Under the pieces are notes generated by a model. That model worked only from the letters and a program-made list of their open reading frames with translations. It had not been told where the DNA came from and did not search any database. Made by a program: the position numbers and the translations under genes. A DNA stretch of 7,198 bases. It comes from Pseudomonadota bacterium. GTDB lineage: Bacteria > BMS3Abin14. Location of the stretch: contig JAFGWO010000039.1 in NCBI GenBank assembly GCA_016937135.1, forward strand, positions 1 to 7,198. Direction: 5' to 3'. This document shows positions 2,830-7,198 of this stretch, one piece after another (within the stretch, counting starts at the first letter, position 1; each line of letters begins with the position of its first letter).

Positions 2830-4836
2830 TCACTTCTCCTCCAGACGGTCCCCGATCTTTTTCAGGGCAAAAAGATAGTAGGCAACCAAAAAGAGACCGA
2901 AAACAATCCTGGAAGAAAAACCCGCCTCGATTTGGAGGGAAGTGGTGGACCTGAAAAATCCGTGCCAGAAAACCCACTTCGACCAGAAGAAGACGGAAAG
3001 AGTGATAAAAACCAGGGACTGCCACCCCGCGCCCAGATAGCTGTGGCCGAGACCCGGAAAGAGAACGGTGGCAAACCTCGAGATGAGAGCCTTCCTTTTG
3101 TTGAAGCTCAAAATCTGCATCATTTTCCTGACCCTGCCAGCGGGGTCGACCCCGCTCCGGACAATGAAGATCTGACGGCATTGAGCACAAAGGCCGTCCC
3201 TGGCCGACTGGCTGCATCGATGACAGTGCAGATGGCCGCATTTCCGGCATCTTGCCGCCCCACGGAAATTTCGCCCCGCCAGACCACCGAGGTAAACAAC
3301 GGCACAGGCCCCCAGGAAGAGAAGCCAGGAACCCCGGAAGGGGATCTTCGGCACAATCCCTGCCCAAAGCCGGTTCCGGTAATCGTGACCCTGGGTGGTC
3401 AGGGAAAGGGAATCTACGAGGGTGGCCCCCATCCCGCGAAAAATATCCATGGTGATCCTCTGAACCGTGGCTTGCTGGGATTCCATGAGCATTTCGGTCA
3501 AGGCCGGGGATCGTTCCTGGGCTATCCTGAACTCCGTCTCCCCCTCTTCGAGCTGAAGGTTTTCCCTTAACGCCTGACTCAGGTTGTAATGGATCCTGGG
3601 GTCGTCCTTGTATCGGAGAGCATCCCTGTAATGGGCAATGGCCTGTTCAATCCTGCCTGTCCCGAGAAGAATATTCCCCAGGTTATTCAGATATCTTGGG
3701 GAAAACGGGGTGATTTCCATGGCCCGCCTCAGAAGGGATTCAGCCTCCTTCATGTTGCCGGACCTTTTGAGGACCAGGGACATCGCCGCGAGCACCTCGC
3801 TGTCCTCGGCATCCCGGACACGATAATAGTGAAGCTCATCCAGGGTTTGCGAACCTTCCCCTCCCCTTTCCGCCTTATAAATCGCGAGGGATCTTGAATC
3901 GGAGAAATAGTCCCTGCCGAGGGAGAGGACATGGAGAAAAGCGGGGACGGAAGCCATCAGAACAAGGGCGATCATGACGGCCAAACGTTCCCTGGAAGAG
4001 AGATGAAGGACCATCAGCAGGGCAAGGAGGATCACCCAGAGAACGAGGGACATTCCGGAAACCAGGACAGCGCCCAGGAGGACCAGAAAGGAAAGGATCA
4101 ACACCCAGTGGGGCACCTTGACGAGATGCGAAAGATCGTGGGAAAGGCGGGGTACAACCCTCAAAAATAACAGGAAAATGGTAAGGGATGACCCCACCGC
4201 CAGTCCCAGCAGCAGCCACAGGGCGAAATCAAGGACCCACGGGAATAAAGAACGGAAATCCTTTAAAAACGCGCCTGTCCCCTCAAGAATGGCATCCAGG
4301 GCCGACAGGGCGCGCAGCTGGTTCTGGCTCCAGATGGTCCTCGCCTTCTGGAAATGGGGCCCGGGTGTGTCGGGGGCGAGATCTCTGGCAATGGAAATGA
4401 TTTCCAGGGAGTCCTCGAACCGGTTTTCCTTCCTGGCCAGGGAGGCCTCTTTCAGAAGAGCTATGGAAGGCAGATAAAGGTTGGGGATTCCGTGGTCTTT
4501 CCTGTAGGCGATCACCCTTTCAAGACTCTCGGAAGCCGCTCTGAAATTCCCCCGCAATATCCCCTGCCGATAGGAAAACCAGTCCTCTTCCCAAGGGGAC
4601 CTGGGGAACCTGGACTTTCCGACGACGATGGCGGACCCATCGCCGGCCGCCCCCCCTTCTTCCTGGTCCTGGAGTTTCAGAACCTCGGACAAGGGAAAAT
4701 CCACCGTCACATCGCTGACTTCGATAGCGAAGGCAAAGGACGCAAGAAGGAGAATTGCCCCCGGCAGGACAGAAAGGGAAAAACACCGAAAGCGCTTCAT
4801 CGCGGTTTGGGTTTTACCGGCCTTCCCTGACGGCAT
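2830..4836 (-). CDS. Multi-pass membrane TPR protein with Cys-rich zinc-type motif
   Basis: A 668-residue protein of unknown function. From the first Met it has a secretion signal or anchor (about 16-37, ending AFA), an extracytoplasmic helical region (about 85-190) that may be TPR-like, then four predicted membrane segments (about 200-227, 243-260, 262-278, 284-303). A clear TPR block follows at about 339-445 (NMKEAESLLRRAMEITPFSP, then RYLNNLGNILLGTGRIEQAI). After another membrane segment (501-520) come six cysteines, C530, C533, C538, C541, C550 and C553, spaced as three CxxC pairs and likely to bind zinc. The C-terminus has PGLGHSYLG and two further hydrophobic segments. The chosen start has GGAAG 7 nt upstream and overlaps the upstream gene by 23 bases. 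An alternative is the ATG at 4800, which gives a tidier signal peptide but lacks a ribosome site. The gene ends in TGA. Confidence 0.87.
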   Translation of the reverse strand: MPSGKAGKTQTAMKRFRCFSLSVLPGAILLLASFAFAIEVSDVTVDFPLSEVLKLQDQEEGGAAGDGSAIVVGKSRFPRSPWEEDWFSYRQGILRGNFRAASESLERVIAYRKDHGIPNLYLPSIALLKEASLARKENRFEDSLEIISIARDLAPDTPGPHFQKARTIWSQNQLRALSALDAILEGTGAFLKDFRSLFPWVLDFALWLLLGLAVGSSLTIFLLFLRVVPRLSHDLSHLVKVPHWVLILSFLVLLGAVLVSGMSLVLWVILLALLMVLHLSSRERLAVMIALVLMASVPAFLHVLSLGRDYFSDSRSLAIYKAERGGEGSQTLDELHYYRVRDAEDSEVLAAMSLVLKRSGNMKEAESLLRRAMEITPFSPRYLNNLGNILLGTGRIEQAIAHYRDALRYKDDPRIHYNLSQALRENLQLEEGETEFRIAQERSPALTEMLMESQQATVQRITMDIFRGMGATLVDSLSLTTQGHDYRNRLWAGIVPKIPFRGSWLLFLGACAVVYLGGLAGRNFRGAARCRKCGHLHCHRCSQSARDGLCAQCRQIFIVRSGVDPAGRVRKMMQILSFNKRKALISRFATVLFPGLGHSYLGAGWQSLVFITLSVFFWSKWVFWHGFFRSTTSLQIEAGFSSRIVFGLFLVAYYLFALKKIGDRLEEK

Positions 4837-5230
4837 CGAGATACTTCCACTTCAGCTCGGCGGAGGCGCTTTTGATCAGCTTTTCCTCCTCATCGGTCAG
4901 GTTTCCTTTGGTTTTGCTGATCATCATATCGATGATATCGATGGTCTGCTGGGCGGCCTGGAGATTTTTATCGACCTGGCCCGTCATCGGATCGGCCATA
5001 TCCCCCATCTGAATCAACGCCGAACTGAAAAGGGAAAAGATAAAAGTGGAGAAATCAACCTTGGTCCCACCCTTGCCCTGTTCGGCGGCCTTTTCTTCTT
5101 CTTTTAGGGCCTGATCAGCAATGGTTTCCGGCGAGGGGGCCGGAGGGCCATCCTCGTCCTTTCCCTTACCGGAGGAAGTCCTTCTGTCCTCGACCTTGAA
5201 GGTCTTTTGATCCTTCTCGTTCTCAGCCAT
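4814..5230 (-). CDS. DUF1844 domain protein
   Basis: A 138-residue, highly charged protein. The first 57 residues are low-complexity and rich in Lys, Glu, Gly and Pro, probably disordered. Residues 59 to about 133 are a full DUF1844 domain: DFSTFIFSLFSSALIQMGD, then DPMTGQVDKNL, then QTIDIIDMMISKTKGNLTDEE. There is no signal peptide, so it is probably cytoplasmic. DUF1844 has no known function; the family is common in deltaproteobacteria and related groups. The ATG has GGAG 7 nt upstream. It is the first gene of the five-gene operon and follows a plausible promoter about 110 bases upstream. It ends in TAA, 23 bases inside the next gene if that gene uses its first Met. Confidence 0.92.
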   Translation of the reverse strand: MAENEKDQKTFKVEDRRTSSGKGKDEDGPPAPSPETIADQALKEEEKAAEQGKGGTKVDFSTFIFSLFSSALIQMGDMADPMTGQVDKNLQAAQQTIDIIDMMISKTKGNLTDEEEKLIKSASAELKWKYLDAVREGR

Positions 5231-5399: not shown

Positions 5400-5462
5400 G
5401 TTCAGAGTTTAGAGTTCAGAGTCGCAAGTTCAGAACCCAGAGTCGCAAGTTCAGAGTCCAGA
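5400..5462. repeat. Three tandem 21-bp units (GTTCAGA-type intergenic repeat)
   Basis: Units are 5400-5420, 5421-5441 and 5442-5462. The last two match at 19 of 21 positions and both contain GTCGCAAGTTCAGA; the first matches the third at about 15 of 21. The shared core is GTTCAGA followed by a variant ending CAGA. The block is flanked by 9-bp direct repeats GAAAAGCAG (5392-5400 and 5464-5472). A perfect 5-bp hairpin, CTGAG-AAAA-CTCAG, lies just outside it. There is no coding signal. The array resembles low-complexity repeats expanded by slippage; a function is not evident. Confidence 0.8.
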
Positions 5463-5612
5463 GGAAAAGCAGGAAGTGCACTTCAGGCAGCGTCTAACCT
5501 CTGACGGTATTCTTTCCAATCAACCATCCTCCGCGTCTTCCAGTCTCCGCGTTCGCTCCCCTTTTCCGGCTTTTCCCCTCTTCCCTCTTTTCTTTTCCCT
5601 TCCCTCTCCTGC
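5463..5612. other. Gene-free spacer with palindrome, octamer repeat and pyrimidine tract
   Basis: No gene is seen between the redox gene and the operon leader. The stretch holds a perfect 12-bp palindrome GAAGTGCACTTC (5473-5484), two copies of CTCCGCGT 16 bp apart (5529-5536 and 5545-5552), and an almost pure pyrimidine tract on the plus strand (about 5551-5610, purine-rich in the transcribed sense). No GC-rich hairpin followed by a T-run was found after the redox gene, so its transcription end is unclear. Confidence 0.6.
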
Positions 5613-6806
5613 CTATTTATCCCCCTGAATTTCCTCGAGGGTCCTTATGATGGCGTTCATACCCGGATCATCGTTGATGTCGTGGATGTCGATGTAGCGG
5701 ATGACGCCTTTCTTGTCGATGATGAAAATTGCCCTTTCCGCAACCCCTTCCCTCCTGAGAACATCGTATTTTAAAGACACATGCCCATGGGGCCAGAAAT
5801 CACTCAGCACGGGAAAGGAAAGGTTGTTGCCCTGCGACCACCCCTTGAGGCTGGGGATATTATCCGTGAGAACACCCAGAACCTGGGTGTCGGTGGCGGC
5901 GAAGAGGTCCTTGAGCTCCTCATACGCCGCCAGCTGGCCCGTTCAGACAGGGGTGAAGGCCGCGGGCAAAAAGGTCAAAAGAACATTTTTTTCCCCCCGG
6001 TAGTCGCTAAGGGTCACATCCGTATCCTGGGTCGAGGGAAGGGTGAAATCCGGGGCCTCCTCCCCGACCCTGGGCTCGTTGGTCGGCCGGGACGGGGGCA
6101 CCATCACATACAGCGGAACCTTTCCCATGCCGAAGGAACTCTCTGCCGCAAAGGCCTCCGAAGGCCCGTTGAAGGGCAACAGGGTTTTAAAAAGAAAGGA
6201 TACGGGACCCGTCTTCCCCTCCAGGATCTCATCAATGGCTTTCTTGTAGTTTTCGTAGGGCTGGGCGCCCTTGTAAATGGTACCGTTAATAAAAACCGTG
6301 GGCGTGCTCCAGATGTCCAGTTCGTGGATCCGGTCAAGGTTTTCGTTCAATTCGGGCAGGTGGGTCCTGTCGTCCAGGGCCTTTTTGAATTTTTCCATGT
6401 CAAGACCGATTTCCTTGGCGATACGCTCAAGGTCGGGCCTCTCAAGCTCCGGTGCGTTTTCAAAAAGAAGATCGTGCATCTCCCAGAATTTCCCCTGGTC
6501 CCAGGCCGCCCAGGCGGCCAGCGCCGCGTCCCGCGAATGGTTGGAATATTTCCTCATGTAAGGGACCATCGTGAAACGGATCTTCCCCTCGTATTCCTCC
6601 ACAAGCCGTTTGAAGGTCAAACTGACCTCCTTGCAGAAGGGTCACATGAAATCCGCGATCTCGATGATCTCCACCGGCGCCTTGTCCGCACCCTTCGATG
6701 GGGCCCTTACGGGTTGGAATGACTCGGCGCCATGGATGGGAAGGGATGCCACAAGGGCCACCGCCACAAGCAACATGATCGTCAGGCAAACAGGACCTCT
6801 TCTCAT
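5613..6806 (-). CDS. Secreted DsbA-like/peroxiredoxin fusion selenoprotein with two selenocysteines
   Basis: One 397-codon frame holds two in-frame TGAs (codons 55 and 288) and ends in TAG. Residues 1-28 form a signal peptide (MRRGPVCLTIMLLVAVALVA, cleavage probably after HGA). Residues about 45-195 are a DsbA/Thioredoxin_4-type domain: EIADFM-U55-PFCKEV replaces the usual C-P-x-C, and the cis-proline loop is STPTVFING (P169). A linker of about 50 residues leads to a peroxiredoxin domain (about 245-397): GEEAPDFTLP, then PAAFTPV-U288-TGQ at the peroxidatic PxxxTxxC site, FPVLSDFWPHG, and the conserved Arg in ERAIFIIDKKG (R358). No resolving Cys is present; C58 is the only Cys in the mature protein. 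The ATG at 6806 has a perfect AAGGAGG 7 nt upstream. Probable role: peroxide or thiol-disulfide chemistry outside the cytoplasm. The alternative, a gene with two nonsense mutations, is unlikely because both TGAs fall exactly on catalytic positions and the frame is otherwise intact. Confidence 0.92.
5895..5931 (-). promoter_or_regulatory. Putative bacterial SECIS element for Sec288
   Basis: It begins 11 nt after the TGA at 5943-5945. The lower stem is GGCGGCG (5931-5925) with CGCCGCC (5901-5895). A small internal loop (TAT opposite TT) separates it from an upper stem, GAGG (5921-5918) with CCTC (5907-5904). The 10-nt apical loop is AGCTCAAGGA, with G as its second base. The loop starts 25 nt after the TGA, within the range known for bacterial SECIS elements read by SelB. 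It lies inside the coding sequence, as expected in bacteria. Folded by eye. Confidence 0.75.
5943..5945 (-). other. Selenocysteine codon (TGA), residue 288, peroxiredoxin active site
   Basis: The TGA falls between TFLPAAFTPV and TGQLAAYEEL. In AhpE/AhpC-type peroxiredoxins this position is the peroxidatic Cys of the PxxxTxxC motif. The frame stays open and peroxiredoxin-like on both sides, up to the TAG at 5613-5615. Confidence 0.92.
6612..6630 (-). promoter_or_regulatory. Putative bacterial SECIS element for Sec55
   Basis: It begins 11 nt after the TGA at 6642-6644. GGAGGTCA (6630-6623) pairs with TGACCTTC (6619-6612), eight pairs including one G-U, closing a GTT loop whose first base is G. 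The loop starts 19 nt after the TGA. A G at the start of the apical loop and this distance fit the bacterial SECIS consensus. Folded by eye. Confidence 0.75.
6642..6644 (-). other. Selenocysteine codon (TGA), residue 55, DsbA-like active site
   Basis: The TGA falls between APVEIIEIADFM and PFCKEVSLTF. In DsbA-type proteins the first Cys of CPxC occupies this position, so the motif reads U-P-F-C. The frame continues through a full DsbA-like domain with its cis-proline loop. Confidence 0.92.
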
Positions 6807-6813
6807 AAAAAAA

Positions 6814-6820
6814 CCTCCTT
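6814..6820 (-). promoter_or_regulatory. Ribosome binding site that fixes the selenoprotein start
   Basis: AAGGAGG on the minus strand is followed by seven T bases and then the ATG at 6806-6804. This favours 6806 over an in-frame ATG at 6854 and leaves a clean signal peptide. Confidence 0.88.
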
Positions 6821-6856
6821 CAACGAAATGGACCTTTGAAAAAAATGTTTTCATTT

Positions 6857-6994: not shown

Positions 6995-7134
6995 TCGCAA
7001 AAAGTCATCGACGCGCCCCGCGCGGGGCGCCCGGATCAAGGACCCGGGTTGCAAGTCCTTGATCCGTGAGGAAAGGGAAAACGACGCTTTTCTTGTTCCG
7101 GAAAGCGTTAGGTCCCGGATCGGACTTTTTGCGA
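6995..7134. mobile_element. MITE/REP-like element with 12-bp terminal inverted repeats
   Basis: TCGCAAAAAGTC (6995-7006) and its exact reverse complement GACTTTTTGCGA (7123-7134) bound a 140-bp non-coding segment. Inside are three hairpins: an 18-bp perfect palindrome GCGCCCCGCGCGGGGCGC (7013-7030); an 11-bp perfect stem GGATCAAGGAC (7033-7043) with GTCCTTGATCC (7055-7065); and CGCTTTTC (7085-7092) with GGAAAGCG (7100-7107), which includes one G-T pair. No transposase is present. No flanking target duplication was identified. It may be a non-autonomous element or a structured intergenic repeat. Confidence 0.6.
7029..7054 (+). repeat. 26-bp repeat module, copy 1
   Basis: It matches 7173-7198 at 25 of 26 positions; the only difference is CCC versus CAC in the middle. 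It sits directly after a GC-rich palindrome and forms the left arm and loop of the 11-bp hairpin ending at 7065. Confidence 0.85.
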
Positions 7135-7154: not shown

Positions 7155-7198
7155 GCGGCCCGGGTGCAGGCCGCCCGGATCAAGGACACGGGTTGCAA
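7155..7198 (+). repeat. Repeat module, copy 2 (GC hairpin plus 26-bp repeat, cut by the window end)
   Basis: GCGGCC (7155-7160) pairs with GGCCGC (7169-7174) around an 8-nt loop, followed by the second copy of the 26-bp repeat (7173-7198). The right arm, expected to read GTCCTTGATCC, would lie just outside the window. The layout matches copy 1, with a different GC stem. Confidence 0.75.

Follow-up and report, generated by a model that had tools for sequence, protein, structure and literature searches.

The question raised by this locus is whether three minus-strand reading frames, separated by two TGA codons, are the pieces of a single exported selenoprotein and, if so, what such a protein would do. 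Within the window (the whole stretch of 7,198 nucleotides that was analysed), the first-pass annotation had joined the pieces into one frame, with both TGAs placed exactly on catalytic cysteine positions (U-P-F-C and PAAFTPV-U) and no other stop or frameshift over 397 codons. The coordinates and both TGAs were confirmed exactly; the frame runs from 6806 to 5613, carries TGA at codons 55 and 288, contains no internal TAA or TAG and ends in TAG (Table 1). When the bases of the gene were shuffled, freedom from TAA and TAG was seen in 1 of 20,000 cases. An in-frame ATG is also present upstream, at 6854; the start at 6806 is favoured because of the sequence GAAGGAGG at 6814-6821 and the start sites picked for relatives. 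The reading preferred here, to which a probability of about 0.7 is given, is that of a conserved two-UGA fusion whose product is predicted to be exported with two selenocysteines, peroxide oxidising Sec288 and the Sec55-x-x-Cys58 domain likely re-reducing it.

Table 1. Features of the fusion locus, in positions of the window.
Feature	Position	Strand	Remarks
Likely ribosome-binding site, GAAGGAGG	6814..6821	(-)	7 bases 5' of ATG; inferred from consensus
Two-UGA DsbA-peroxiredoxin fusion gene	5613..6806	(-)	397 codons, ATG to TAG; intact in 8/12 genomes of the phylum
N-terminal export-type signal, residues 1-27	6726..6806	(-)	basic start and hydrophobic core; cleavage point set by eye; helix 3-21 in model
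DsbA/DsbG-like thioredoxin-fold domain, residues 38-193	6228..6695	(-)	Pfam PF13462, PF01323
UGA codon 55, position 1 of U-P-F-C, predicted selenocysteine	6642..6644	(-)	TGA in 8/8; Cys in Cys-type fusions
Cys58, last position of U-x-x-C	6633..6635	(-)	sole Cys outside the signal
Predicted SECIS 1, GGAGGUCA-GUU-UGACCUUC	6612..6630	(-)	8 base pairs, loop 19 nt past the UGA
AhpE-type peroxiredoxin domain, residues 247-372	5691..6068	(-)	AhpC-TSA (PF00578)
UGA codon 288, peroxidatic position (PxxxTxxU), predicted selenocysteine	5943..5945	(-)	TGA in 8/8; outside the phylum, TGA or TGC/TGT
Predicted SECIS 2, two-part stem-loop downstream of UGA codon 288	5894..5932	(-)	
DUF1844 gene, next gene downstream of the fusion	4814..5230	(-)	Pfam PF08899; likewise downstream in L037, L038 and L039; adjoins the remnant in L027

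Conservation of the gene was followed in 12 genomes of the phylum (G000-G011), several of which are incomplete. The whole fusion was found in eight of them (G000, G003, G004, G005, G006, G007, G010 and G011), representing six of the eight genera, and the relatives align with the window fusion over the full length at 58-70% protein identity. In each carrier the fusion has exactly two TGAs (G003 and G010 use a third as the stop), and both fall on invariant catalytic columns that read TGA in 8/8. As the same two TGAs recur in every genome with the fusion, they are not sequencing errors, a doubt that had accompanied the original proposal. The search of the 12 genomes found no fusion in G002, G008 and G009, and only a remnant (L027, 1501-1731) in G001, with an internal deletion and a TAA; it is located between DUF1844 and MazG, the place held by the whole gene in L037 and L039. 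This genuine case of decay lends some colour to the view that the fusion is a decaying pseudogene or a product of assembly errors. That view is nevertheless exceedingly improbable, given the identical two TGAs in eight separate genomes, the lack of any other stop or frameshift and the low dN/dS after each TGA. Median dN/dS was 0.24 upstream of the first UGA, 0.15 between the UGAs and 0.10 downstream of the second; 17 of the 84 pairwise values were undefined and dS was near saturation. The regions beyond each UGA are thus under protein-level selection.

Homologues were used to establish which residue would be expected at the two sites. A protein search with the peroxiredoxin (Prx) part yielded at least four full-length DsbA-Prx fusions of a cysteine type (P0212, P0219, P0248 and P0275), all with Cys at both Sec columns. 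These proteins were absent among the 120 matches listed by the first two protein searches, and the idea that the architecture is Sec-only was dropped once they had appeared. They have the same domain order as the window protein, a length of 374-421 and 34-36% identity to it, but carry Cys in place of both Sec and fall outside the Sec-fusion clade of the Prx tree; no family name was found for them. This tree has 41 rows, and its midpoint rooting serves for display only. The eight Sec fusions group together in a single clade (97/99); next to it is an all-Cys group of 18 rows that includes the Cys fusions, and other Sec peroxiredoxins are placed elsewhere. This scatter implies that more than one change of state has probably occurred with respect to Sec at the peroxidatic position. 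Among loci outside the phylum, the Prx codon is TGA in Acidobacteriota (L042-L045) and Myxococcota (L047-L049, L059), where these relatives are Prx-only, and in L061. The remaining loci with an aligned codon have TGC or TGT there, except for GGT in L067 and GCT in L104. At the DsbA site, the loci of other phyla that have an aligned codon (L054, L063, L064, L066, L089, L090, L098 and L101) carry Cys; inside the phylum, TGA occupies the place of the first active-site Cys in 9/10 more distant DsbA-like loci (L026, L028, L030-L036), the exception being L029, with Cys. Several database proteins (P0011, P0281-P0284) are middle segments of the Sec form and stop at PAAFTPV, exactly at the second UGA. 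A partial DsbA-Prx protein from Sumerlaeota (P0187) starts within the DsbA domain, past the CxxC place (DSBA profile from position 110), and its missing start may hide a UGA.

One alternative is that UGA is generally reassigned in this genome, to Trp, Gly or Cys, so that neither site is Sec. A full-length metagenome protein that is 68% identical (P0002), and so a ninth copy of the fusion, is indeed called with Trp at both UGA sites, and UGA-to-Cys suppressor tRNAs exist; the two tryptophans would, however, be explained if the gene of P0002 had been called with a UGA-Trp table. Furthermore, TGA is the stop codon, as had been claimed, of the genes ending at 679, 1620 and 2830, none of which contains it internally. 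It also terminates the fusion gene itself in the relatives G003 and G010, where UGA would thus have two roles, Sec and stop, within a single message. The code is accordingly not reassigned. With the internal TGAs coinciding with catalytic Cys columns and the lineage possessing tRNA-Sec, SelA, SelB and SelD, reassignment is considered very unlikely. The two-selenocysteine reading of the first-pass annotation is thus supported by homologues, conservation and the Sec machinery of the lineage, and Sec is predicted at both sites with very high confidence.

The distribution of that machinery is uneven. A tRNA-Sec was above cut-off in 11 of the 12 genomes, including all eight carriers, selA in nine, selB in eight and selD in six; every one of these selD genes has one in-frame TGA (L125-L130), and SelD is probably itself a selenoprotein in those six genomes. 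All four genes were above cut-off together in four of the eight carriers (G003, G006, G007 and G011, >90% complete), but each of the other four (G000, G004, G005 and G010, 73-81% complete) was without at least one of selA, selB and selD above cut-off. For the window's own genome, G000, which is 81% complete, the secure finds are limited to the tRNA-Sec (73 bits) and a selA that is truncated by a contig end; profile matches to selB and selD were all sub-threshold, two of those to selB being near contig ends. A second match to the tRNA-Sec model, at 47-49 bits and thus at the cut-off, was seen in six genomes (G000:C63:3252-3339, G003, G004, G006, G007 and G011) and is probably another long-arm tRNA.

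The stretches following the UGAs were compared with the published bSECIS model, which, in the accessible text of its source, specifies a loop of 3-9 nt, 4-16 bp, a G within the first two nucleotides of the loop (holding for most, not all, bacterial elements) and a distance of 16-37 nt (PMC13188914). After the first UGA, an 8-pair stem with a G-U-Y loop 19 nt downstream fits this geometry in seven of the eight carriers, with stem energies of -9.0 to -9.8. After the second, 7/8 likewise have a stem, of 6-8 pairs and with the loop 25-27 nt downstream, but the loop G is present in L024 only; L025 fails the perfect-stem test at both UGAs. From the fit at each site, the first UGA is predicted to be followed by a near-canonical SECIS element and the second by a probable, atypical one. 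Synonymous-codon constraint on a 12-codon scale had its gene maximum in windows starting at residues 53-54, with an excess of 0.366 (389 windows, mean near 0, sd 0.09). Directly after the second UGA it was not raised (0.002, rank 182 of 395), and a lower peak starts at 299-303. Folding beyond that of synonymous shuffles, scored as z averaged over the eight genomes, has its peaks close to the two UGAs. With 36-nt windows, the lowest 11 of 385 all start at 55-59, 292-294 or 304-306, in the order 293 (z -3.0), 59, 58, 305, 55, 292, 57, 306, 56, 304 and 294; for 48-nt windows, starts at 289-293, 50-51 and 56-59 account for the 11 lowest of 381, led by 292, 293, 291, 51, 290, 58, 59 and 50. Compared with dinucleotide shuffles, single 43-nt folds after the first UGA had only modest stability, with z of -0.9 to -1.1 in four cases and of +0.2 in L025. 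The minimum-energy fold of this stretch differs from the SECIS 1 hairpin in the window and in L024. The pairs of SECIS 1 are mostly invariant, and covariation amounts to one pair, a level reached by 113 of 500 shuffles; in the window, a paired double change from G-C to A-U keeps the pair while the amino acids change. At the second UGA, RNAalifold returned a weak consensus (-4.2 kcal/mol) and no covariation is claimed. Of six DsbA-like paralogues of the phylum that were tried, five could be located, each of which carries a stem with an AGGU loop 34 nt after the UGA.

The proposal that this is one protein with two redox domains was upheld by Pfam matches above cut-off. Residues of about 38-193 matched Thioredoxin_4 (PF13462, 104 bits) and DSBA (PF01323, 60 bits), with BdbD (3eu3) as the nearest solved sequence, and residues 247-372 matched AhpC-TSA (PF00578) at 121 bits against a cut-off of 26. 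In the DsbA-like domain, U55, C58, T168 and P169 are invariant among the eight fusions, T168-P169 (motif TP) being what we take to be the cis-Pro motif. In the Prx domain, P281, T285 and U288 satisfy the motif PxxxTxxC/U, and AhpE is the closest solved relative by sequence and by fold (VIA-align comparison, covering the Prx part); the AhpE-type one-Cys pattern fits as well, since the fold is that of AhpE and the domain is without a resolving Cys. A hydrophobic N-terminus is present in 8/8 fusions, and the protein is predicted to be exported. Outside this putatively cleaved signal, U55, C58 and U288 (window numbering) are the only redox residues in 8/8. The AlphaFold model reached a pLDDT of 64 with 8 alignment rows and 87.9 with 49; residues from about 200 to 243 were modelled with low confidence and may form a long flexible linker.

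From this composition, the fusion is predicted with good confidence to act as a peroxidase, and an internal relay between the fused domains is considered probable. SelB and the two stem-loops would insert Sec at both UGAs, and Sec288 would react with H2O2 or a hydroperoxide to give a selenenic acid. This would then be attacked by Sec55 or Cys58 of the same or a neighbouring chain, and the resulting Sec55-Cys58 bond would be reduced by thiols outside the cytoplasm. As the mature protein would hold only three redox residues, its Prx domain, like AhpE, has no resolving residue of its own, and U288 would probably be recycled by the fused UxxC domain. AhpE (Rv2238c) is a one-Cys peroxiredoxin described, in the accessible text of PMC4360819, as reduced by a separate redoxin, Mrx1; it differs from the window's domain in using Cys and in standing alone, its partner unfused. 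Among the Cys-type fusions, P0248 and P0275 contain, outside the signal, no Cys other than CxxC and a single one in the Prx domain, which was counted in favour of the relay. P0212 has a further Cys (320) in the Prx domain, which shows that not every Cys fusion keeps to three such residues.

Support for the relay also came from joined or adjacent genes in other lineages. Prx-Grx fusions (e.g. P0200, P0254), which occur among the listed Prx relatives, likewise join a close Prx domain to a CxxC redoxin; they differ in that Grx is C-terminal and no signal was seen, in the two examined, and in that there would be at most one Sec. Of the 100 listed proteins P0185-P0284, 12 have Trp at the Prx site and all 12 have a Grx domain (the metagenome proteins P0210, P0222, P0228, P0229, P0232, P0250, P0254, P0260, P0261, P0263, P0271 and P0276); these are likely Sec Prx-Grx fusions in which TGA was misread with a UGA-Trp table. 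In Halocatena marina and Azospirillum brasilense, the two cases examined among 475 matching plasmid records, the redoxin and DsbA genes are neighbours with gaps of 2 and 66 bases, although these encode two proteins, with Prx first and Cys at the sites. It may nevertheless be that the fused DsbA-like domain acts on other proteins instead of Sec288. A selenoprotein with independent domains, in which a DsbG-like isomerase or reductase is tethered to a peroxidase reduced by an unrelated thiol, would accord with the stand-alone Sec versions known for both domain types and with the possible linker near 200-243; it is judged unlikely, as it leaves the Prx domain without a resolving residue and sits poorly with the Cys fusions and adjacent gene pairs of other lineages.

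The preferred peroxidase relay has a further rival in an oxidising use of the same chemistry, in which peroxide would oxidise Sec288, which would oxidise the DsbA-like domain, which in turn would form disulfides in exported proteins and so replace DsbB or VKOR. The relay chemistry would be identical, the electron source alone being different. The partners of DsbA-like proteins were therefore of interest. DsbB was found in none of the 12 genomes of the phylum, and DsbD_TM, marking DsbD-type partners, in four, including two of the eight carriers. VKOR was also found in four, namely 1/8 carriers versus 3/4 non-carriers, a contrast that is not significant (Fisher p 0.067) and is drawn from 12 related genomes, several incomplete, in which it is confounded by kinship. 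In G003 (100% complete) and G007 (99%), none of DsbB, VKOR and DsbD_TM was found. This pattern of occurrence keeps peroxide-driven disulfide formation a serious rival, albeit an unlikely one: G008 has neither fusion nor VKOR and G011 has both, and Sec at the first UxxC position is expected to make the pair less oxidising. About as unlikely is a self-contained, peroxide-powered disulfide-forming selenoenzyme that passes electrons from exported proteins through its two Sec to peroxide and replaces the membrane quinone route. If true, a lineage that lacks DsbB, and in most genomes VKOR as well, would form its disulfides by means of a fused DsbA domain and peroxide. A further question posed by the locus is which partners oxidise or reduce the DsbA-like proteins of a lineage with no DsbB found among 12 genomes.

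Comparison with known selenoproteins was made to judge novelty, the first-pass annotation having held that Sec-containing DsbA-like and Prx families are known and that one protein with both is rare at best. Table 1 of a 2026 review, stated to hold 119 families or subfamilies, lists single-Sec DsbA-like, DsbG-like and Prx entries, in line with the former statement, along with several double selenoproteins (PMC13188914). On the latter, that table contains no DsbA-Prx double selenoprotein: the listed proteins with at least two Sec per chain (e.g. NF047649, NF045648, NF041536 and TsoB NF045694) resemble the fusion in this respect alone, have other domains, and none joins DsbA and Prx (PMC13188914). 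In the accessible text of earlier papers (PMC2398784, PMC9312934, PMC1794560) there are other fusions or none, and a DsbA-Prx selenoprotein is not named in the literature titles and abstract starts searched. No NCBIfam model reaches its cut-off on the fusion protein. The best match to residues 38-193, the DsbG-like selenoprotein family NF041057 (Rcas_1661), shares the UxxC thioredoxin-fold domain but is listed with one Sec (PMC13188914) and scored 93.9 bits against a cut-off of 190. Sec peroxiredoxin (PF00578, TxxU; PrxU, NF040737) shares PxxxTxxU with Sec at the peroxidatic position but is listed as a one-Sec Prx family (PMC13188914), and NF040737 scored 57.4 bits against a cut-off of 270. 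As neither the table, the NCBIfam models nor the literature so surveyed gives a DsbA-Prx double selenoprotein, the two-Sec DsbA-Prx architecture is judged to be new as far as these sources extend, the single-Sec domain families and other double selenoproteins being already known. The fusion is a conserved addition to the two-Sec architectures, one that gene calling splits into fragments (P0003, P0011, P0281-P0284), and, with three redox residues outside the signal, two of them predicted Sec, would offer a clean system for extracytoplasmic diselenide or selenenylsulfide relay chemistry.

Outside the coding features, an Rfam scan of the window gave sub-threshold matches only, without bearing on the fusion. 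A short tandem repeat (unit of 21 bases, 2.2 copies) lies at 5417-5463, between the fusion and the DUF1844 gene, and a 33-base direct repeat with copies that are 91% identical occupies 7022-7054 and 7166-7198, the second copy being at the contig end.
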